This document shows positions 13,676-29,174 of a stretch of 64,000 bases of DNA, in pieces (the first letter of the stretch is position 1; the number at the start of each line of letters is the position of its first letter). The position numbers and the translations under genes are program-made. The stretch spans positions 1,250,660 through 1,314,659 of the forward strand of contig NW_011887296.1 in assembly GCF_000151315.2 (NCBI RefSeq), written 5' to 3'. The notes below the pieces were generated by a model. That model was not told where the DNA came from and did no database searches. It saw only the letters and a program-made list of their open reading frames with translations. The DNA comes from Capsaspora owczarzaki ATCC 30864 (taxonomy: Eukaryota; Opisthokonta; Filasterea).

Positions 13676-16544
13676 TTAGGTAGACGTTCCAAAGTAGCGA
13701 TCACCAAAGTTGCCTACAGCGTTGGAACGATTGCAACATCAAAATAAGCAAACAACGCGATGAAGGGCCATTCATTCAACTCATTCATTCATTCATTCAT
13801 TCATTCATTCATTCATGGTTCTGACTCACCAATGCCCGGAATAATGTGGAATTGCTCGTTGACTTCGCGATCAACCTCAGTAGTGATAATCTTGACCTTG
13901 GGGAAGGCGTAGGCGAGGTTGTGGATGCCTGACGGCGCGGCAATGAGGGAGAGGAACATGATGTTCTCTTCTGGAATGTCGTGATCGAGCAGGACTCGGA
14001 TGGCCATCATGGCTGCAGCACCTGTGGCAATGGTAGCATCCACGAGCAAAATGTGGGCACCGGCCAGGCGCTTTGGCAACTTGCAGTAGTGCAGCTGTCC
14101 AACGAGAGGGGAATACATTTGTGAGACGAATGCATACCAGACTCGCAAAAACGCACTCGCGCAACCACTAGCCCCTCACCTGGGGCTCGCCAGTCTCTTC
14201 GTCGGTTTGGATGAGAATCTTGCCAAGACGAATGTCCTTGCAGACATCTCGGAGCGAGCCCTCCATTGTGACACCAGCGCGCACAATCGAGACTCCAATC
14301 AGGGTACCGTTGAAGCTGAAACCAAAAGGCACGAGTAACAAGCAGGGAGAAACAAAGAGGCCAAATGAGCAACATGGCTCACCAGAATCGAGCTACAAAA
14401 TAAATCAATTCCCTACCGCTGTCCCTGGAAAAGGGCATTCGAGGGCGTGGTCACGATCGTCTCCTGGAAGGGCAAAAAGCTCAAGGCGTACTCGACCAGC
14501 AGACGCATCAGCCGTTGCGAATAGAAGATAAACTCATCGCGTGGCGTGTCCCGGTTGCGAATGATTGTGTGCATGGCGCGAACCTAGAGTAGGAGGGAGC
14601 AGGAGGGAGTTGGTGGAGACACGGTTTCGAGAAAAAAATTCAAACGTAAGCGACTCGACAGCAGCTTCCACGTGGCAACTTAGTCCAAAAGACACCCCTT
14701 ACCTGACTGCCTCGAGGCAAGACGTGCAGCGTGTCGGGCATGGGGCCGTCCTTGCGAGCCGTGGCGATCTTCTCGCGGAAGAGAAAACCACGCTCGTTGA
14801 GTTGCATGCGCACGTGATCAATAATCAAATTAATGGCAACATGGTTGTCTGAGCCGCGAGGCACAACAACATCGGCGTGGTTCATCGACGGAGCGATGAA
14901 CTCATCCATGGCCGGCTTGACAAACTTGTTGTACTGCTTGATGACGCCAGCGAGATCGCGACCACGCTCCAGAATATCGCGCTTGAGTCGTCGAGCCAAG
15001 CGGATGTCCGAGTCGGTGTCAACAAAGACCTGGGTGGGTAGAGAAAAGCAAAAATAAGCAACAATGAGGGGAGTGTCATTGCAGAGAGTCTTCCAAAAAG
15101 CCAAATCGTACCTTCATGTCCATGAGATCTCGCAAATCCTTTCGGCAAAAGGCCTAACATGTATGATTTCGAGAACAAGGCGATTGAGTCAACAGCAACG
15201 ACAACAAAAAGGACAAATCAAAGAACTAGGAACGTACCAGAATGCCTTCAAAGACAATAACGTTTGCGCCATACATGGTGTGCGTGTTTGGCAAACGACT
15301 GTGCGTGTTGAAGTCGTAGACTGGGATGTCCACATTCTGTCAAGACGGGTTTTATGGTTGAATGTCAGTTGAAGGGATCACCGATCTTGCGAACCCAAAA
15401 TCACAACATACCTTGCCCTCCTTGAGCTTTTTGAGAGTCGTGACCAGCAGATCGACATCAAAGGCGTTCGGATGATCAAAGTTGTACTCGCATTGATGGG
15501 CGCGTTCGATTTCAGCAGGAGTCAAGGCCTGCCAACCCAAAACGAGACAACCAAAAAAGGTGAGAATTCAAACGAGTATCACGGTCGCAGAAAGAGGAGC
15601 TCCTTCACAAGGCAACAGGAATGACCAGCAGACATGCCTTGTAAAAGCTATCCATGGAGAGAAGCACCACCCACGGCACTCCGAGCTCTTTGATAATCAT
15701 CTGCGCAACAGTGGTCTTTCCGGAGGCACTGCAAAGCACAAACCCAAAACAAAAGTCCAGTGAATCATCCTTCAGCAGTTAGACACCAATCAATACTCAA
15801 TGTCACTCGAAGGATGATCCATCCAGTGCTGCTGCGTACCTGCCGCCCGCAATGCCAATGACAAACGCTTCCTTGAGCTGACCATCCACATTGTACCACG
15901 GCGGACGACCTACATCCCAAAACCCAGACAATTTTTTTTTTCCAGCAGCGCCATCGAGTGAGACACATTTTCGAACATGCACATACAACAACTGCACACT
16001 GAGTGACGAGCATTGGGGTGTTGTAATGCTCCGTTCTTGTGGCTTGTTGGCAACACCGCGTGAAAACCCGTCTCAAGCCAAAGCCAAGCCATGGATTGAG
16101 AAACAACCAAGCTCGTCTTGATTGTTTGCTCAGCTTTGCTTGCTTGGGGGTGTTTGTTGTTGTGTTGTGCGTGTGTTTGGGATGGCTTTGGAGGCCTTGT
16201 GGTGACTGACCATGCGTGAAGATGGTGCGGCGCTTGGTGGACGCGTGCTGGGCGCCAGCGTCACTCGATCCGGACGCACTGCGCGAGACCTTGGAAGTGC
16301 ATGAAACGTCGCCTTCCTCCTCGCAGGTGACTGGAAGCGCAGCGACGGAGGCAGAGACAGCGGACGACGCGCTCGAGCCAGTCGAGTGAGCCAGTGAGCC
16401 AGTTGAGCTAGCTGAAGACGACACGGCGCTGCCGGGGAGTTGCGCAGCCGATGCAGACATCTTCTGGCCGTCCACAGAGAGCAGGTTGGGCGAGGTCGAG
16501 AGCAACTGCGACGACTGCTTGCGCGCGAGGTGCGGGATGTCCAT
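13676..16544 (-). CDS. Uridine-cytidine kinase fused to uracil phosphoribosyltransferase (UCKL1 type)
   Basis: Eleven exons close in frame to 561 residues: 16211-16544, 15840-15909, 15638-15728, 15412-15528, 15238-15336, 15112-15153, 14703-15029, 14417-14583, 14180-14315, 13830-14094 and 13676-13713. Residues 1-115 are Ser/Ala-rich and disordered. The kinase half has a P-loop GIAGGSASGKTT (~130-141), split across an intron, then MDSFYK and NFDHPNAFD. The UPRT half has QTDEETGEP, a PRPP-loop-like segment [15 protein letters not shown] and the family end [12 protein letters not shown]. The kinase phosphorylates uridine/cytidine to UMP/CMP. The UPRT domain makes UMP from uracil and PRPP in bacteria and plants, but is often inactive in animal UCKL1. 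The third intron has a GC donor (AAG|GCATGT). The gene is only 174 bp from the stop codon of its upstream neighbour. Confidence 0.93.
13781..13816. repeat. CATT tetranucleotide microsatellite
   Basis: About nine units of CATT/ATTC lie inside the last intron of the uridine kinase/UPRT gene, next to the donor at 13824-13829. Confidence 0.85.
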
Positions 16545-16718: not shown

Positions 16719-19700
16719 TTATGGCTTTGCTTGGCACTTGCCGCAGATGGGCTTTCCGTTCTGGATGAACATGTCCGTGGCAGTAGCAGGAGTTGAGCAG
16801 TGCTGAGAGGAGAGAGTTGGGGAGGGGGGAAGGGTTAGGGTGAGACACAGAGCCAAAATGCTTGCGCCAATCCAAATTCGAAAAGAACGAGAGCAAAGCC
16901 TTACCCGACACTTCAAGCACTCGTTATGCCACTTTTGGCCATCAGCGTTCGTGTACGTGCCATCAATTGGCTTGCCGCAGCCAGAGCACGCGTTCGCTGG
17001 CCCGCTTTCAGCGCAATGCTTGTGATACGGCAAATTGTCCAGGACGACAAACTTGGATTCGAGTTTCTCAGAGCAATGCGTGCACCTGGGGGTGGGGAAA
17101 GGACAGAGAGATTCGACCAAGTCACTTTCATAAGCACAACGAAAACCACTCAATCTCGAATTCCGAAACCCGAAATACCATCCACATACCTGAAATGATC
17201 AGCGTGCCAGGAACGACCGAGAGCATTGATGGCATTCTCACCAGAGGCGATGGCAACGTGGCAGCCAGCACACACGCGGCCAAATAGAGCCTCGTAGTCG
17301 TGTTCGCAATACAACCGACCTTCCTTGTCGAGGAACCGACCCGACCCGAACGGCTGCTTGCACTGGTGGCAAACAAAGTGCTCCTTGTGGTAGACACGAC
17401 CGATGGCAGAAATCCACTCGGTGCCAGTCCCAATCGCGCCGTTGCAGTCATGGCAGACAAAGGACATGGCGCCGCTGTTGCCAGCAGCGAGAGATGGGAT
17501 GGACGATGACAGCGTGGCATAACCAGTGCCAAACGTGACGGAAAGGGAGGAAGAGGCTGGCTTGAGGGCAGTTGCGGACGACGAGGAGTGTCGTGGTGTT
17601 CGCGACGACTTTGCATCAAAGTTTTTGATGGCGCGCAGCACGTCGTCAAAGTTTCCCGACGACGACCGCTCTGCGACCAATGTGCTAGTTCCTGGCTGCA
17701 GAACAAACTGGCGTCCGCTGAGCAAGTTCGGGCAGATCTAACGTTTTGGCAAATTTGCAGAGAAAAAAAAAAAGCGCAAAATTGAGACAAAGGTCGCGGG
17801 CTATCCTCCTTCTCAACCCTCCACGACGAAGCTTTCTACCAGCACGCTCTGCTCTGGTGCCTTTCAGCAACTTCAATCACACGTCCTGTCTGCCTTCCTC
17901 ACAAAAGCAAACAAAACATACCTCGGTCAGCCGTTCGGAACCAAGGCCCTTGAAAACGACTTCGCCAGCAAAGGTGAACCGCACCTCGAGCTGCTCGGTG
18001 ATATCGCTACCGCACGCTTGAAGGGCCTTGATGGTGCCTTCGCTGGCAATGATTTGACCACCGTCTGCCATATTGCCGAGCAGCGTTGCGCGACTCACGG
18101 CAGGCCCAAAGTACTCCATGCGCTCCGTGACATTGTCCAGCTCGCAGCCGACTTCGCCAGTGTGCATGCCGATGCCCACGCGAAGGCCACTGAAGAGCAG
18201 CCGACCGCTGGACGAACGCACCTGCTTGCAGTGCTCCATGTCGAGAATGTCGCTCGGCCAAGTGGCAGCGACCAGCTTCATTTGCAGGATGGCGCACCAC
18301 TGCACAGCATCGACAACGTTCTGGAAGACACCGAGGAAGGAGGCGCCTTCCGTTCGCACTTCATACCCGTGCTGGAAACGCAGCGACGTGCGCACCAGGT
18401 CGTTGTGGATTTTGGTGGCGTTGTACATGGCCGTGTGGTTGGCCTCCCAGAGTTCCGTCACATGTGCCACGTGCGTAAACACGATAGTGACGGTGCCGGT
18501 GGGCGGGGAGACCTCGGGCGAGATCTTTTGAAGCATTTCGTAGTACTTTGAGTTGCGCCGCGGAGCGCCGTGTCCTGCGCTCTCTCGCACTTGCAGGGCA
18601 TCCACCCCTGAGTGCACGCCAGCGCCAGGTGTGGCAGAGGGTGAAGCGGCGGCAGTTCCGGGCGGCGGGAAGGCTCGCTCGCTCAGGGTTCCAGGAAGCA
18701 GCTGAACGAGCGTTTCTTGAATCTCCAAGTCCTTGAGTTTGAACTCGCCCAGGGGCTTTCCGGCAGCGTGGAAGGGTGCAAGTGTTTCTGTGCGCAACTT
18801 TGGCTGCAGCTGGGCCCACGCTGCGCCAGACACGACAATTTGGCCTCCGCTCGCGAGTGAAGAAACCCGATTTGCTCGGCGGACGTTCGGACCGTAGTAG
18901 TCCATTCTGGCCAAGCAATGGAATAGCGAAAAGCAACAACGAATAAATCCCCCCACCAAATGCAAGCGCAGTTAGTCACTGAGTGTGAAAGGAGCAGCAA
19001 AACAAAAACGAAAAAAACAAAAGGTACCGATCAGTGATGTCGTCCAGCTCAAATCCAACATCACCCGTGTGGATTCCCATGCGCACTCGAAGACCTCGAT
19101 ATACGAGTTGGCCGTTGGCAGTGCGTTGCTCGCCACACCCGGCAAACGACAAAGTCACCTGAAAGAAGAAGAGGAGAAATGAGAGTTTGCAAAAAAAAAA
19201 CAATCAATCAGAAACAAACACCTCGACAAAAAAGCCAACTCTGGGATGTCAAGCCCCACATACCTGTGGCCATTCAGCATCCATCAGCTCCAGCTGGGCC
19301 GCCATGCACCAAGCAGCGGCATCCACTGGGTCTTGGAACGCAACCATGAACGCATCGCCCTCGGTTTTGACCTCGTATCCCTTGTGCCTGCGCAGACACC
19401 GCCGCATAATGTTGTTGTGAACCTTGATGGCCGTTCGCATCGCAGAGGCGTCCGACTCCCAGATGGCGGTGGAATTTTGAATGTCAGTGAACACGAGCGT
19501 GACCTCGCCTGTCGGTGGTTCCACTTCCTGGCAAATATCGTCGAGCTGCCTGGCATAGGATGTGCTCGTCTCGGTTGGCGCAGATGCCGCGCCGACAGGA
19601 GAGGATGCGCTCGAGGCGCCATCAAACAACTCGGCCACTGGGGCTGGAGAGCGTGATGACGAGTTTGCAACGCTACCGTGCGGCCTCGATGCGCTGGCCG

Positions 19701-22700
19701 CAATGGCAACCGACACGGGCATGGCAGCGTTTGCGGCGCTTGCGCGCGCGCGTGACGGAGATCTCGACTTGGGCACGGCAATCAGCGTCAGCACGGTTTC
19801 ACGCGTCGATGAGAGCACGTTCTGAGCGTGTGCCATCATGAGCTTGAGAGCGGCCTCGTCACTGGGTGCGTCCTTGGCTTCAGCCGAGGCCGTGCGTGCC
19901 TGATCAAGAAGCGCCTGGACATGCTGCAACAGCGTGCCGCGAGCGGCGTTAAAGGCAGCGAGTTGGGTCGAGGAGGTCGACGTCTCTTTGGTGCCTGGTC
20001 GCGGTGTCAGCGCAGCGAGCAGGGCGAGCACTCCGACTTCTGCGTCGCTGGCGATATTCACAAACTGCGCCTTGTTGCCGGCATTGGCAGCGGCAAGCAG
20101 CGCCGCGATGCGTTGAGCGATGGTGGATGTCAAATGCTCAAGCAGGTCGGCCGAGGTGCGCTCGACATCGGATGCGTCCGATTCGTGGTTGGTGGCCGAA
20201 GAGCCATTGCTTTGCGCCCCTCCAAACACCAGCGGATGGATTTCGGAAGTGTTGTTGGAAATGGTGCGTTTTCGCGCCTTGGCAACCGTGACCGAGTGCT
20301 CTTTTGCCGCGTCCAATAGCGCAGACGGGAGCTGCACATGCCGCAAGTCAATGTTGCCTGCAATAGCAAGCGGTCGGACCATGGCGTGGTTGGCAACGTG
20401 GGTCGCATACAGCTTGTCCAGGATTTGCAAAAGCTGCCGCGAAGTGTCGAACGCGGGATCGTCCTGCCACAATAGATGAACAGAGGCATGTCAAGTTGGT
20501 GCGATAGAAAGAATTGAGTGACCGCATTCTCCATCGGCAAGTGCATAAAAGTACAAAAAATACAAACAACAATCCTCGTACCTGCCGCCGGTCGTTCATC
20601 TCCTCGATGGCCTCGCGCAGCGACCAGAGATGTCGGAACAGAGCCGCCGCAGCTTTGGCAACCTCCTGGTCAGCAGACAAGACTGGCGTCGAGACGCCGA
20701 GAGAAGCACCGACGCTCAAGCTGTAGCCAGTCGCGGCCGACAGGCTTGCGCTCCCAGAGGAAGGGGACACGGAAAACTCTTCGGTGGTCGTGGCCGACGG
20801 GCTGCGCGGCTCAACAGCGACCATGTCGAGAAAGGCTTTCAGGCTGCTGGTGTTATCCTCGATAACGCGATTTAATGGCAGCAGGTACCTTTCCTTATCA
20901 GTGTACTCGGTGAGCGAGCCCAACATTTGCACCGTCTTGGCCACAAGCGTGAGTGTTCGAGCAACACGCTCGTTGGGGAAGTCTGCGCACATGTGGAATG
21001 CCTTGGGTCCCATCATTGCTGCCAAAAAGTGGAATGAACGAGCCAAAGTGAGCAGAGGGACATTCACGAACAAGCACACTTAAAAAAAAAGAAAAAAAAA
21101 AAAAGAAGAGGCAACAAAGAAATCAAAATAAAAAAAAAACACACTCACCAGGACACAACAATCGCGTAAAAATAAAGGCACTGACGGCAGAATACCGCAC
21201 GTTGGGATCGCTAGGGAAGCACTTGGCCGCACAATGCCGCAGATCGGCACAAACTTGGCGTAGAGGTGTCGGGAACTGCTTTCCGGAAGACATGATGGCA
21301 TTCATCACGCGCGTTGCGTACTCTGCGAGCAGTTGGAGGTTTTTCTTCACATTGGTGGTCTTGTCGACAAAGAACGGGTTGACTTCGCAGTACTTGTCTT
21401 CGAGAATCATCTCATCCAGCGGCTCTTTGAGAACGGCACGAACGTAGGGCAAGGCAATGTTTCGAATGTGCAGTTCAATCACCTTGGTGGCGAGAGAGGC
21501 GTTCTGGACAATCGAGGACGTGGTGCCGATGGCAGAGCGAAATTGCACCTCCATCATTTCCTTCAGAAAGCTTCGTGTCAACCGCCGGGTGCCAATGAGA
21601 TCGAGAATACGCTGGCCAGTCTCCGAACGGTCTCTGGTCACACCATCAAGCGCCAAAACAAGCTGCCGCCGATTGTTGAGGAAAAAGTCGACAAACTCGG
21701 AATACTCGCTCACGGGCAGCACGCCTTCTTCAATGTAGGAAAGTCGCAGCCGAATCATGGGTCCTTCGTCCAGGCCAGGCGGGGCCGGTGACCCGTTGCT
21801 TCGGGTGGGGCCACTTCCAGAAGAGGTTTCGCCTGGAGTAGGGTAGCTCGGAGCGAGAGGCGACGTCGCTGGACTGGGCGATAGACCTGGTGTGTGCGGA
21901 GGTGTCGAGCCATTGCCAGCGTCGATGGCTGGGTAGAGGGCGTACCAGTGGTCGTACACTGTACCTCGCTCAAGCGAGGCCAGCGGCAAAACAATGCGCC
22001 CCATCGCAGCTTCGCCGCGGCTAATCACTGCAGACAGCGACGAGACTGTCCCGCCGGGGCCTATCGTGCCGTGATTGCTTTTACCGCTCGGAGTGGTCAA
22101 AACAGTGACATGGAGGGACGAGAGCAGGTCGGCATTGCGCACGGGAATTTCAAACAGCTCGTCAAACGTCGGAGCGTCGTTGGCCTTAAACTGGTGGGTT
22201 CGGTGCTCGACCGGACTGGCGCCTGGCACTGGGGAAATCAGGGCGACAGACACGACGGGGTTGATGTCGGTGATTTTGCGCTTCATTGTCCCGCTGTTGC
22301 CTCGGCCGCCGTAAAAGAGATCGCGCGCTTCGAGCACCTTGACGCGCAAAACACCCGCGGAGGCATCGTCGGCAGTGGCCTGGTCGCCGCCGCTACTGGC
22401 CGCAGGAACAAACACAATTTGCAGATGAATGTCTCCAAGCAAGCGGTCCTCGTCGGTCGCGGGTTTGAGCTTGTACCACTGCTCGACAGGCACATGGCCT
22501 GTGCGCGCCTGCAGCACGGCCTTTGGAATCGACACTTGGCCAGTGGGAATGTCTGCTTTGCGCCGGGCGTCCCACACGACAACGGAAATGTCGTGAAACT
22601 CTGGGAAGAGCTCAAAGTGGAAATCGGTGCCCCAGTAAGGGTTTGAGTTGCCCTTTGACGGAGCGGCATCCTTCATGCGTCCCAGCGAGATGCGTCGACC

Positions 22701-23448
22701 AGCAGAGATGTGCGGCGTGCGACCGGCCTCGTTGCGATTGAGCCTTACCGTGCAAAAGCATGATTGCAGGAGGCCTGTTGTTTTGTTCACAAGAGCAAGG
22801 CAAACCAAAGATCGAGTTGAGTGTCATGAAAGGATGGAGCAAAGCAGAGCTTCCATCTACAAGAGTTTTTAGTATTCTGAGACCCAAAAATCTGAGACCG
22901 AGCGACTGTTAACACCTCTTGTGTCGCTCTCAAACGCGCACACATCCCTGAAACACCACCTCAATTTCCACCCGTACTTTCGATGGTGTGGACGTTGAGT
23001 TGACGAGTTGATGTGTTTTGAGTGATGACCTGACGGAACAGGACCTGGCTTTGACTGACTAACTGACTGACTGCTTAACAAGCTGCACGCTCTGCCGCTG
23101 TCTCTCGCTCTGCCTCGCCTCTGCTGGTGTTTCGTCCTATGCTTCACTGCACAGCCACACCAGTCCAGCGAGCTCTCTTCTCCCTCTCCCCCCCTTCTCG
23201 TCCAAGTTGGTGACTCCAGTAAGCTGCCTTATAAGCCTAAAAGCATTGGTGTTTCGCCTCGACCGCAGCCCAGCTTTCCCGCTTCAATCCCCCCTCAATC
23301 CCCTTCAATCAACTCACTCACTCACTCACTCAATCACTCGTTCATCCATTCATCCATCCATCCAAACACACACACGACCCAGAAACCAGAAACCAGACCG
23401 CAGTTCAAAAAAAAAAAAAAAAAAAAAAAAAAAGACGAAAAAGTTGAC

Positions 23449-23484
<36 letters not shown>

Positions 23485-23889
23485 TTCCACAACAACAGAA
23501 ACAAAAAAGAAAAAGGTCGAAAAAAAGAAGACGAAGAAAAAAAAAAAAAAAAGGTCGAAAACGCGCTCAATCGAAAGCAGCAGTCACAAAACATCAAAAA
23601 GCGATTGGATTTTGCAGCATCAACAACGGAGGGAAGCGATCCGCACACCCGAAAAATGCCGAACGCGGTGGCGAGAGAACGAGAGAACGAGAGACGGGAG
23701 TGAGAGAAGCACTCCTTCAGCATCACAATCGGCGAATGCTTATGGTCAGCGTTACAGACCTGGCAGGTTGCGCGCCTCGACGACCTTGATGTCAATGTAG
23801 TGGTCCTTGATCAGCTTGCTGGCGGATCCAGTCTGGTTGGCGCTGCCAGGGTTGCTGACGGGCGATGCTTTGGCAACGCTGGACGCCAT
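16719..23889 (-). CDS. C2-C2-RasGAP-nucleotidyl cyclase (x2)-LIM (x3) fusion protein
   Basis: Nine exons (23760-23889, 21149-22774, 20582-21018, 19264-20463, 19028-19158, 17922-18906, 17190-17737, 16905-17085, 16719-16802) join in phase to 1,773 residues. Domains in order: C2A ~30-150 (IDIKVVEARNLPG; NPYWGTDFHFE); C2B ~183-325 (LRVKVLEARDL); RasGAP ~395-690 (SLATKVIELHIRNIALPY; FIFTRLLCPAMMGPKAFH; RTLTLVAKTVQML); an Ala/Ser-rich linker; class III cyclase 1 ~1047-1240; cyclase 2 ~1309-1503; three LIM zinc fingers ~1598-1770. The RasGAP arginine-finger position is Gln467 (SIVQNASLATK for TLFRGNSLATK). Cyclase 1 keeps metal Asp1058 and Asp1101, adenine-type Lys1097 and Asp1177, and Arg1188. Cyclase 2 has His1320 and Ala1363 at the metal positions. 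Expected role: a Ras-linked adenylyl cyclase, with C2 for membranes and LIM for partners. The long 22914-23760 first intron holds poly-A/T runs. No transmembrane segment is seen. Confidence 0.9.
23407..23483. repeat. A27 ... T33 inverted homopolymer pair
   Basis: A run of 27 A is followed after 17 bases by a run of 33 T, inside the first intron of the RasGAP-cyclase gene. A transcript of either strand could fold into a long A:U hairpin. Confidence 0.85.
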
Positions 23890-24312: not shown

Positions 24313-26025
24313 ATGGGCTCTGGATCAGGTACGTTTGCCTTTTTCCTAGAGCTATAGTAGATTGATTGGATTCGCGTTTCTGTATGAGCGAGTGTTGATC
24401 ACGTCGTTGGTGAGGGTGCTGCTGGTCTTCACTCGCTCAACCAACACCCGAATCGTGCAAAGCCAACAGGCGTGAAAGCTCTCCCCCATTTTAGAATACT
24501 GCTCAGAAAGCGCAGTCTCCATTTTTTTGTTTTTTCCCTTCCCAAACCTGGCTCATTCTCTCCTCCGCTCAGCCAGTCTCAGCAGCAGCAGCAGCAGCAG
24601 CGTGCTTCACGCCACCCTCCACGGTCATCGACGCAACGCCACTCCGCTTCGGATAGTGCTGCTTGCATCGACAGCCGCTGCATTCGTGTCCTCGATCGCA
24701 CCGTCAAGTGCACTGCAACCACGCCAATTGCGATTTGGCAACAGCAATAGTGGCAAGTACGCCCGCAGCGCCGCCGAGTCCGCCGACCTCGCCAAGGCTT
24801 GCTCCAGTCAGAACACCGCTTCACGCAGCACAAAGTCATCTCTGAAAATGGCGTGGCGATCGCACGGGACGACCAACGACGGCCTCGTGGATGCTCTCCA
24901 GCGTAAAACTGATGACTGCCACTGCTAACGTTGCGTTGTTTGTTGCGTATCGCACAAGCTGAGACATGTCAAAATCGAAGAGCTCATAGCATGCTTGCAC
25001 TTTTTTTTTGGCGCTGTTTGGACATTGTTTTTTGATAGGAAACGGCATTATCGTGTCAACCGAGGTCGAAGCCGCCATGCGTGCCGTTGATCGAGGCGAT
25101 TTCACCCTCACACAACCATACCAAGACTCTCCACAACCCATTGGTAATATAGAGTGTATCAGGGATGGTTCTGGTCTGCTCAATGTGGGGCTGGCGTTCA
25201 TCCCAATGCTGATTCGTTGTCGTATTGCTTTTGTTGTTGTTGTTGTTCGACGCAGGTCATGGAGCTACGATCTCCGCACCGCATATGGTACGAACGAAGG
25301 CGACAACTGTTTGTAGGCTGCTCCTGCACAATGCTCACCTTTCTCCTTGCTTTCGGTCGTTCAGCACGCACATGTGCTCGAACTCCTCAAAGGTCACCTT
25401 CGCCCAGGCATGCGCGTTCTTGATGTAGGATCTGGCAGTGGCTATCTCTGCGCTTGCATGGCTCATATGGTACGTGCACAGTAGGAGAGCCTAAATCCGC
25501 AATGATATACGACAAACACCAACATCTTGCGCTTCAAAATAAATTGCAGGTTGGGCCGGCCGGCAAGGTGGTCGGCATCGAGCACATCCCGGAGCTGGTC
25601 AACATGTCGCTCATCAACCTCAAGCGCCACCATAACGAGGCGCTTGAAGCTGGGAGAATCGAAATTGTCGTCGGCGACGGTCGACTCGGCATTTCTGGGA
25701 GCCAATTTGACGCCATTCATGTCGGAGCCGCTGCACCCACCATCCCGCAAAGTGTGAGTGTGCTGTTGCGTAGTTGGGAGCCTGTGGACCAAGCCGTAGG
25801 CCTCCGAACCTCTTGAAACCAAAAAATCTGACTCTCGAATTTGTGCAACAGCTCGTGGATCAACTGAAACCCGGCGGTCGTCTCGTCATCCCCGTCGGCC
25901 AATCCTTCGGACAATCACTCGAGCAGGTTGACAAACTGCCTGACGGCTCAATCGTGACGCAGCACCTCATGGGTGTCATCTACGTCCCGCTGACCGATCG
26001 CGAGCATCAGCTGCAGAACGCATGA
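24313..26025 (+). CDS. PCMT1: Protein-L-isoaspartate (D-aspartate) O-methyltransferase
   Basis: Seven exons (24313-24328, 24573-24902, 25039-25143, 25256-25287, 25365-25469, 25550-25753, 25852-26025) give 321 residues. From Met98 the protein is a standard PIMT of 224 residues (human is 227): [18 protein letters not shown] at the start, [19 protein letters not shown] in the substrate loop and the SAM-binding [10 protein letters not shown]. It methylates isoaspartyl residues in aged proteins with S-adenosylmethionine, starting their repair. The 97 extra N-terminal residues include a hydrophobic stretch ([22 protein letters not shown]), suggesting a signal peptide or membrane anchor and an organelle-directed form. 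The extension depends on a 16-bp first exon (ATG at 24313) joined in phase. Without it, the ATG at 24848 would start a cytosolic enzyme. Both forms may exist. Confidence 0.92.
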
Positions 26026-26324: not shown

Positions 26325-29174
26325 TTAGAGCATCGCCTCATCGGTGGCCAGGGCACCCATGGGATCCCAGGGCGGCAGGACGATGGGCTCGGTGGCCAGC
26401 GCAGCTTGAAGCTCCTTGCTGAGGAAGGACTTGCGCGCAGCAATCTCAAACACGTGCTCGTCAAACCAGCTGTCGGTCATGGCCCAGTAGCCCTTGTTTC
26501 CAACGTCCGACGAGCCCCAGCTGCCAAAGTCCCAGCAACGTAAAAAGACCAAAAAAAGTGCAGCCGTGGGTATGACGGACTCGAGATTTCCAGCCATCTC
26601 AAACTTGGCAAAAGTACAACGGGCCCTTACCTGTTCTCGACCTTCCATTTGCGAGTCTTGCCATCTGCAATATCAACTCCGGTGAAGGCCATGGCATGGG
26701 TCATCTTGGATTCGTGGTAGACGAGCCGGTCCTCCTTGGACAGCGTAAACTTGGTGTCATAAACGCCATCAAGCTAGAACGAGCACCAGCAAGTTAGAGG
26801 AAGAAGAAGAAGAAGAAGAAGAAAAAAAAAACCAAGCCACCCTTATTCCTCCTGCAAGCAACAAGCCAAGAACCAAAAGCGCCTGCTCAATCATCGGTCT
26901 CACATCGAACAAGTTCTTGTCGCACAGGCCAAGGTCACGCTTGACCATTTTGCCAAAGTCGCAGCCAAACCACACGGGCTCCCCAGCCTCCAGGGCCTTG
27001 CGAGCGCAGTCCTTGATGACGGAAATGTCGACATTGAGGTACTTGACCGGTGGCTCGCCAAGCACATTGCCGAGGTGCTTGACAGTGTACGTGCGATTGA
27101 CGGGCGATGTCTTGCGCGGGTCGTGCACAAGACAGACATAGTCTTGCGGGTCGGCGCCCGCATACTTGTGTCCAAACTCGACTGGAGTGAGCACACCATC
27201 CTTGTGGAACTTGTGCTCCTTGTCCTGCCATTGCCAGTCAATCTTCTTGGGAGGTGTGCCGAGGTGAATGTTCAACATGCGCCAAATGGTGGAGAGAATC
27301 TCGTGTTTGGCGTCTTGCAGCTCCTCTTCGTCGCTACCGCGGATGATTAGCGAGCGGAGCACCTTGGCGCCTATTGCGCATCAACAGTTTGGTGAGTTAC
27401 TCTGACTTCGAAAGCACAAGAAAACAAACAAACAAACAAAAAACAAAAACCGAGACCACCGCCCGACAGTTCACCTACCTTCACGAAGACGAGCGTTCAG
27501 ATGCGAGTTCATGTCGCGAGAGTGCTTCGAGCTGTACGTCTCGGGCATGGCGCTCTTTGGCACGAGGCCGTGCTTTTTGATCAAGGCGGCAACCATGTTC
27601 CACTGGCCGCCGTCGGAAAGGGGCTGGTCGAGCAGGAATGCAACCTCGCGGTCAGTGACAGGGAGCTTGGCAGTGTTGATGATGGCCTCGAGGAAGTAGT
27701 TTGAGCGCTCAAACTTGTCCCAGAAGAAGAGGTGGTTTTGGCTAAACTCAAAGTCGCTCACCCCCAGCTTCTTGATGGTGCCAAGCCGGAGCATGTTCAG
27801 CGCGGCAAACAGCCAGCAGCGACCCGAGGCATGCTGGTGGGTCACGCCTGCCGAGACGTGGACGTTGACCGAGAAGGCAAAGTCGTTCGCCTGCACCACC
27901 GAGTGGTTGAGCGCAACGTCGCGGATGCTGTGCGACACGACCGCGTTCTGCGCCAGGCGGTACTGCGTGCGCGATGCAAACTGTGTGTACAAGTCCTCGA
28001 GCTGGTCCGCCATGACGGTGGTGTTTCTGAAAACGAGTCCAAAAAATTTCAAAGAGATTGAGCGATATGATTGCAGTTCCAGGGACGGGGATGGTTCCAG
28101 AGGTGAGTTTCAAGTCGTTCGCATCCCACCGGAACGAGGTCGCTGGATTCCCCCATCCCCCGCCTTCCCATCTCAAACCTTCCATAGTGCTTTGGTTGGT
28201 TGTGATGTTGAAATTGTTAGATTCAGATTTTTTTTTTTTTTTTTTTTTTTTGGGATTTGTTTTGGTTCTGTTGTTGTTGTTTAGGTCCTTTTCGGATTTT
28301 GAATCTCATTCGTTCCCCGCGTCCGTCCGTCCGCTTTCGTCCATCTTCCCTCGTCCTCTGCTTTCGTAGCAGTTGCGCTTCACTCGATCGCCCGTCCCAC
28401 CCAACGTGGAACAAGCAGGGTACCCAAATCAACCAAAACCACAAGAGATTCGCCCTTATTCTTGCCCTTGTTACTGGGGCAACTTACCGAGCGCCATCAT
28501 CCTCTTCCTGATCCGCCTCAGCAGCAGCAGCAGCAGCAGCAGGTTCATCAGCATCGTCGTTCTCGGCTTCCTGCTTCTTCTTGGTCTGACTCGCGGGCGC
28601 TTCGTCCTTGGTCGTGCTGGCCTCGTCGTCGTCGTCGTCATCCGTTTGGTCGTCTTCCTTGCCCTGGTCTTTGTCGTCCTCGGCTTTCTCCTCGCCTTCT
28701 TCTTCGTCTTCCTCCTCGTCTTCGTCTTCGTCTTCGTCTTCGTCATCGCTGTCGAGCTGTTTGTGTGTTAGATGACGATGATGATCAAAGTTGAGTATCG
28801 TTTTTTTTTTTCAAATACTCCTTGCATAGAATCGCTGGCTCAGGCTCAGTGATCCTTACCATCAGAATACCCGACTTTGAGAGCGACTTGCGACCATCCG
28901 AAGCAGCGCCGTCAGACGAAGCAGCAGCAGCAGCAGCAGCAGCAGAGGGAGGAGGACCGCCCACAAAGCTCAGCTTGGGCGAGTTGTAGAAAGTCGATCC
29001 GTTGTCAACCTCGCTCGTCGTCGCCTTGCTCGCAGCAGCCGGGGCGACCGTGGCACGCGCGGCAGGAGAATTGAAGCCAAACGACATGCCGCCGCCTTCA
29101 GACATGGCCTTCAGCAGCGCAGCCTCGGCAGCGCGAGCCTCAGCGCGCACTCGCTCAATCTCTTCCGATGACAT
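26325..29174 (-). CDS. BLMH: Bleomycin hydrolase (C1B cysteine peptidase) with acidic N-terminal extension
   Basis: Six exons (28860-29174, 28488-28756, 27479-28026, 26904-27370, 26631-26773, 26325-26520) close in frame to 645 residues. From Met200 it is a typical bleomycin hydrolase: the Cys265 motif QHASGRCWLFA, His559 in MTHAMAFTG and Asn580 in VENSWG form the catalytic triad. The family acts as a hexameric cytosolic aminopeptidase that hydrolyses homocysteine thiolactone and bleomycin. The end DPMGALATDEAML extends past the usual DPMGALA, where the C-terminus gates the active site. Residues 1-199 are not family-typical: Ala/Ser-rich, then a run of Asp/Glu encoded by GAC/GAA repeats. The two 5' exons are joined by a GTAAGT donor and a strong acceptor 13 bp before ATG 28013, in matching phase. 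A separate gene or an alternative start at 28013 remains possible. Confidence 0.85.

Follow-up and report, generated by a model that had tools for sequence, protein, structure and literature searches.

Does a single gene at this locus join a Ras GTPase-activating protein (RasGAP) fold to cyclase and LIM domains, and would its product switch Ras off or sense it? The window, by which we mean the whole stretch of 64,000 nucleotides (nt) analysed here (Capsaspora owczarzaki contig NW_011887296.1, positions 1,250,660 to 1,314,659), carries on its minus strand a gene that runs from 23889 to 16719. Judged from its sequence, a single gene encodes the whole C2-C2-RasGAP-cyclase-cyclase-LIM chain. Our fuller reading, to which we give about even chances, is that this C2-C2-pseudoRasGAP-linker-cyclase-pseudocyclase-LIM3 gene is one of at least two paralogues, that its RasGAP fold would dock on Ras-GTP without hydrolysing it, and that its cyclase tandem would not be active alone. 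The residue losses described below suggest Ras sensing and not Ras switch-off.

Nine minus-strand exons were joined into 5322 nt in a single frame with a terminal stop only, giving a product of 1773 amino acids (aa) with the domain order C2-C2-RasGAP-linker-cyclase-cyclase-LIM-LIM-LIM. GT-AG borders were present in all eight introns; intron 1 is 985 nt long and the other seven are 102-184 nt. An in-frame stop lies 5' of the ATG, with four codons in between. The preliminary description of this DNA had proposed nine in-phase exons with clean splice sites, and both its end coordinates and the junctions 20463/20582 and 17737/17922 were exact to the base. The features, all on the minus strand, are as follows.

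23760..23889, minus strand: exon 1, with the start codon, the N-terminus and the opening strands of the first C2 domain, C2A (gene model).
21149..22774, minus strand: exon 2, with the rest of C2A, the second C2 domain (C2B) and the first half of RasGAP to FTRLLCP (gene model, Pfam, alignment to p120GAP and SynGAP chains).
21504..21506, minus strand: codon of Gln467 at the RasGAP arginine-finger place, R789 of RASA1/p120GAP (alignments).
20582..21018, minus strand: exon 3, with the second half of RasGAP (LVAK and DKERYL motifs) and the start of the linker (gene model, alignments).
20464..20581, minus strand: intron 3, the RasGAP-to-cyclase junction, 118 nt, GTACGA...TGGCAG (gene model, coding score).
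19264..20463, minus strand: exon 4, with the linker (aa 732-1043) and the first half of cyclase 1 (gene model, Pfam).
19028..19158, minus strand: exon 5, with the middle of cyclase 1 (gene model, Pfam, solved-chain alignment).
17922..18906, minus strand: exon 6, with the end of cyclase 1 and most of cyclase 2 (gene model, Pfam, alignment).
17738..17921, minus strand: intron 6, the junction between the cyclase and LIM exons, 184 nt, GTATGT...GTTAG (gene model; the cyclase tail resumes in exon 7).
17190..17737, minus strand: exon 7, with the cyclase 2 tail, a Ser-rich linker, LIM1 and the first half of LIM2 (gene model, Pfam).
16905..17085, minus strand: exon 8, with the second half of LIM2 and the first half of LIM3 (gene model, Pfam).
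16719..16802, minus strand: exon 9, with the second half of LIM3 and the stop codon (gene model, Pfam).

Pfam searches of the joined protein identified C2 in two stretches (4.6e-16), RasGAP (1.6e-25), Guanylate_cyc in two stretches (5.3e-51) and LIM in three stretches (2.7e-35), and every one of these families exceeded its own curated cut-off. Cyclase 1 as a whole covers aa 1044-1254 and cyclase 2 aa 1306-1514. Scored alone, C2B, cyclase 2, LIM2 and LIM3 reached 9.7e-9, 4.1e-20, 3.1e-12 and 1.1e-13, respectively. A zinc-ligand-spacing pattern detected LIM1 and LIM3 and missed LIM2.

Seven of the eight exon junctions fall inside a domain, the exception being the RasGAP-to-cyclase junction (exon 3/4), which is located in the linker. 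Six are bridged by Pfam matches or solved-chain alignments, in C2A, RasGAP, cyclase 1 (twice), LIM2 and LIM3; the RasGAP had been described as split at FTRLLCP/A (the slash marks the junction), and exon 2 does end at FTRLLCP with the RasGAP alignment crossing over. The exon 6/7 junction lies in the cyclase 2 tail, past the end of the Pfam match, and its support is the similarity to a paralogue presented below. The joined ERLTE/ICPNLLSGRQF aligned with the paralogue's ERLVQILPSALSGRIF, with a score reached by 0 of 1000 shuffles, which bears out the earlier joining of the cyclase 2 exon to the LIM exon at ERLTE/ICPN. The exon 7 side of the tail alone was matched by 4 of 1000 shuffles against the paralogue and by 37 of 1000 against the cyclase 1 tail. 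The cyclase tail and LIM1 are both within exon 7.

The splicing of exon 3 to exon 4 is concluded from coding statistics, the short intron and the domain order of the paralogue. Other genes of this genome served to train the codon model, and the non-coding set consisted of the remaining introns and the flanks of the window gene. From the acceptor of exon 4 to its first Met (81 nt, 27 codons) the score was 0.51 bits per codon in the frame of the gene model, and the tail of exon 3 scored 0.38; neither value was reached by any of 77 non-coding windows. Intron 3 scored negative in all three frames, with positive values on either side. Left unspliced, the RasGAP frame of exon 3 would extend to 20348, beyond the earliest Met codon of exon 4 (20382). 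The entire RasGAP-cyclase linker showed weak similarity to that of the paralogue (28 of 1000 shuffles). Two points weigh against this junction: the coding score is imperfect, being about zero for exons 5 and 9 and 0.04 in one frame of intron 8, and the local similarity to the paralogue at exon 3/4 stayed at shuffle level. Homology at this junction was dropped as a proof of splicing, since 919 of 1000 shuffles reached its score.

Searches of the organism's own genome (27.46 Mb, 29 contigs) scored the best candidates only, and copy counts are therefore lower bounds. At least two genes of the same plan were found, the window gene and locus L029 on contig C1 (C1:857.2-863.3 kb, minus strand; kb, kilobases), where one open frame of 2220 codons has RasGAP, two cyclase and LIM matches. 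Since the paralogue has this architecture in one open frame, it lends the architecture its strongest support, beyond what splice prediction gives. A model of L029 that starts with Met at C1:863280 and has a single GT-AG intron of 129 nt near the end gave 1989 aa, in which Pfam identified one C2 (5.2e-6), RasGAP (4.5e-11), two cyclase stretches and three LIM stretches. In blastp, L029 was 36% identical to the window protein over 792 aligned positions spanning both cyclases and the LIM domains (E 4e-132), and 23% identical to the window RasGAP (E 3e-8). Pfam, the coding score and this collinear locus together uphold the claim of one gene with C2-C2-RasGAP, two cyclases and three LIM domains.

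L029 resembles the window gene in its C2, RasGAP fold, two cyclases and LIM domains in identical order. It differs in consisting of one long exon and one short intron, in having a single detected C2, in keeping all six cyclase residues in both domains, and in a more diverged RasGAP, with Gly at the finger and with too little similarity left for its Ras-contact Lys to be compared. The single intron in its model matches the last intron of the window gene in both LIM3 position and phase (CFVCQ/DC and CLKCR/HC), and this common intron suggests a shared ancestral gene. A RasGAP-LIM gene on contig C3 weakens the intron argument for common descent, since one of its LIM domains seems, by eye, to be split at a similar place.

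The best solved match of the window RasGAP was p120GAP (6e-35), followed by SynGAP and neurofibromin. The finger loop of p120GAP, TTLFRATTLAST, aligned with SSIVQNASLATK of the window protein, which puts Gln467 in the place of the finger Arg. A first guess by eye had taken QFRSA as the arginine finger; it was dropped when the alignments with p120GAP and SynGAP put Gln there. As the finger is replaced by Gln, the window chain is probably not an off-switch for Ras. In a table of RasGAP domains from the same genome, 16 stretches reached the finger column, and Arg was present in 11 of them. The other five were the window gene (Gln), the paralogue (Gly), C16:73 kb (Gln), C1:188 kb (Glu) and a second frame near 1281 kb of contig C2 (Asp). 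Two weak RasGAP stretches under the table threshold, at C3:2385 kb and C3:833 kb, have Arg and His there, respectively. A RasGAP-like gene on contig C1 (L038, C1:186.5-190.5 kb, minus strand) reads Glu in this column, and a DUF547 domain lies downstream of its RasGAP-like stretch.

Three residues were kept: Arg in the FLR motif, which reads FTR here, and Lys in each of the motifs LVAK and DKERYL. We take these three to correspond to R1391, K1423 and K1436 of neurofibromin (NF1). It is plausible that the window RasGAP binds Ras. According to PMC7437355, the NF1 mutation R1276A changed KRAS binding only marginally, although mutating R1276 is described there as destroying GAP activity, and the interaction with KRAS was abolished when K1423 and K1436 were replaced by glutamate. 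Because the finger is lost, the equivalents of R1391, K1423 and K1436 are kept, and these mutants behaved in this way, the domain is read as a putative Ras-docking, non-hydrolysing one.

Several observations weigh against such docking. Finger loss also occurs in two further RasGAP-like stretches of the genome (Gln and Glu) and in the weak one with His, and it is therefore not special to the window gene and L029. In the window domain the Leu of FLR is changed to Thr and both Asn of QNLAN are changed to Met and Ser, changes that may have cost the domain its Ras binding as well. According to PMC12871552, mutations of the finger or of FLR in IqgC blocked binding to RasG, and IQGAPs do not bind Ras. 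PMC13042986 treats it as uncertain whether the loss of activity caused by R1276P also follows from R1276Q.

Both cyclases belong to class III, and their closest solved relatives by sequence are trypanosome GRESAG4 cyclases (1.2e-30 for cyclase 1 and 7e-20 for cyclase 2). Six catalytic columns were read on an alignment of 41 relatives from bacterial genomes, the organism's own domains and three solved cyclases. The 41 relatives served as a residue control only; the patterns used to find them include the Lys and the second Asp, hence those two columns are biased and the other four are not. Among them the metal-1 Asp was present in 41 of 41, the catalytic Asn in 39 and the catalytic Arg in 36. 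Window cyclase 1 reads D, K, D, D, R, R and keeps five of the six residues, including the metal Asps and the Lys/Asp pair, with the catalytic Asn replaced by Arg1184. Window cyclase 2 has none of the six (H1320, R1359, A1363, E1439, S1446, L1450). Both cyclases of L029 have six of six, so that of the two genes L029 is the more likely to encode the family's enzyme.

The active site of class III cyclases spans two domains, with metals bound by one and other residues supplied by the partner. Because such sites form between two domains, the window cyclase pair has no complete predicted intramolecular site, and it is probably inactive by itself. The solved cyclase Ma1120 has Ala in the Asn column of this alignment; loss of the Asn by itself is therefore no proof of inactivity. 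The preliminary description had placed both ends of a Ras/cyclic AMP (cAMP) circuit on one chain; that this would be a working circuit is not supported, given the Gln at the finger and the incomplete cyclase site.

In a tree, the fusion cyclases grouped with LRR-PP2C-cyclase genes of the same genome, apart from GRESAG4 and Ma1120, with a support of 95. The inner nodes were weakly supported (12, 42, 43 and 57) and did not order the cyclase duplication relative to the gene duplication. The tree and the residue table cover the cyclase genes other than those at C2:2648 kb, C3:1480 kb and C12:473 kb. When loci L032-L034 were scanned, L032 and L033 gave weak matches and L034 none. On viral contigs, 84 matches to the cyclase pattern included no relatives.

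Taken together, the two copies look complementary, the window gene having the better RasGAP surface and the poorer cyclase, and L029 the reverse. The family may consist of Ras-GTP-docking scaffolds welded to cyclases that are related to the Cyr1-type enzymes of this genome, with Ras binding and cyclase control as predicted properties. The two C2 domains would tether the protein to membranes, the finger-less RasGAP fold would dock on Ras-GTP in the manner of an effector, without hydrolysis, and the LIM trio would recruit partners. The window cyclase tandem would be regulatory or dependent on a partner, and the cyclase output of the family would come from the L029 paralogue or from pairing in trans. 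A bolder extension, which we regard as speculative and rather unlikely, is that sensing of Ras-GTP on behalf of a cyclase, otherwise the part of an RA domain, falls here to a RasGAP fold that lacks the arginine finger. This would be a second, so far unrecognised Ras-to-cAMP route in which the paralogues split the work: the window protein would contribute the better surface for docking Ras and a cyclase 1 that has its metal residues but no catalytic Asn, L029 would contribute complete cyclase residues, and Ras might recruit the two into an active heteromeric enzyme.

The alternative that survives best, and which we consider possible but clearly behind the docking reading, is that Ras binding and cyclase activity are both gone and the folds are protein-protein platforms joined to LIM partners. 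The changes at the finger, at the FLR Leu and at both QNLAN Asn fit it, as does the change of 7 of the 12 cyclase catalytic positions. However, the kept equivalents of NF1 K1423, K1436 and R1391, and the five of six residues in cyclase 1, exceed what a platform needs. A working GAP that uses another Arg, for example Arg456 in QFRSA, and turns Ras off beside the cyclase is improbable. An FR dipeptide does end 11 residues before Gln467, and the FLR motif still has its secondary Arg, but the alignments with p120GAP and SynGAP and the own-genome profile all place Gln at the finger, and the L029 paralogue is likewise without the finger Arg. Two genes, with C2-C2-RasGAP ending after exon 3 and cyclase-cyclase-LIM beginning at 20382, where exon 4 has its first Met, are very improbable and were largely rejected: the junction is the sole one outside a domain, has no similarity above shuffles, and gene spacing may be tight (the downstream gene has a candidate start 174 nt past the stop), but the coding signal reaches both splice sites and the 27 codons 5' of that Met, the unspliced RasGAP frame would terminate within the supposed second gene, intron 3 is 118 nt long, and RasGAP and the cyclases share one unbroken frame in the paralogue.

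Within the linker, aa 835-965 (window 19762-20154, minus strand) look helical by eye. Its Pfam matches were below cut-off (DUF7783, E 0.028; GIT1_C, E 0.04), and the linker of the paralogue also matched GIT1_C weakly and below cut-off (E 0.09). From the helical look and the weak GIT1_C matches in both paralogues, the linker between RasGAP and cyclase might be a helical-bundle domain. Around the gene, an exon of the uridine kinase family lies downstream (window 14643-15113, minus strand), PCMT methyltransferase exons lie upstream on the opposite strand (window 25424-26022, plus strand), and an exon of a Peptidase_C1_2 gene is located at window 26772-27380 (minus strand).

The combination of RasGAP, cyclase and LIM had been presented as absent from described proteins, and we found no description of it in the open-licence literature, which omits most subscription papers, so that its absence from print is not proven. 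Its host is a single-celled organism that is probably closely related to animals. A RasGAP fold joined to a Cyr1-like cyclase and LIM domains offers a direct test of pre-animal Ras/cAMP wiring. The two paralogues, with their opposite patterns of retained residues, also bear on the paired evolution of enzymes and pseudo-enzymes.

Among known systems, p120GAP, SynGAP and the C2-C2-RasGAP-PH-BTK proteins, which we take to be the GAP1 family, resemble the window protein in having C2 before RasGAP. The GAP1 family differs in its arginine finger and in PH and BTK, which were not among the Pfam matches of the window protein, whereas the latter adds cyclases and LIM domains. One gene of the same genome (C13:744 kb) has C2, RasGAP, PH and BTK. 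IQGAPs are alike in having a RasGAP fold with a replaced finger, and in PMC12871552 and PMC9408373 they are reported to be without GAP activity. They differ in having Thr and not Gln at the finger, and YYR and not FLR (PMC12871552). No other IQGAP domain was present among the Pfam matches of the window protein. The window domain is a RasGAP by fold and not by its catalytic residues.

A second RasGAP-LIM gene of this genome (L037, C3:1703.5-1713.4 kb, plus strand, at C3:1706 kb) has a PH-RasGAP-PH frame followed by LIM frames, apparently in one gene. Unlike the window gene it has no cyclase, has PH in place of C2, and keeps an intact LFRGNS finger. Because this second RasGAP-LIM gene exists in the same genome, the RasGAP-LIM fusion may have arisen more than once or may predate the addition of the cyclases.

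A functional comparison can be made with the Ras-responsive cyclases. Yeast Ira1 is reported to bind adenylyl cyclase. The best other cyclase matches in the genome were LRR-PP2C-cyclase genes, one of them with RA domains, and two of these genes (C7:836 kb and C3:807 kb) are of the Cyr1 type (RA-LRR-PP2C-cyclase). The cyclase domains of these two share 49-54% identity with cyclase 1 in both the window gene and L029. LRR and PP2C were found in both L030 (C3) and L031 (C7:836 kb); RA was found in L031 only, where RA, LRR and PP2C lie in neighbouring frames, and the L030 piece is cut inside the LRRs. The catalytic Arg is replaced by Ala in the C7 cyclase (L031), and the second metal Asp by Glu in the C3 cyclase (L030), so that both may likewise be unusual enzymes. 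RasGAP, C2 and LIM were not found in the five pieces scanned. In the C7 gene Ras would be read by the RA domain, and the C7 and C3 genes have one cyclase domain each, in contrast to the window gene. As described in PMC12002173, yeast Cyr1 is stimulated by Ras-GTP and carries an RA domain, and the Cyr1 family was lost in metazoans and retained in unicellular holozoans. Because RA, LRR and PP2C were not found among the Pfam matches listed up to E 1, the window protein does not appear to be a Cyr1-type member; the likeness would lie in the predicted link between Ras and cAMP, and the protein would be Cyr1-like in its working if that link holds.

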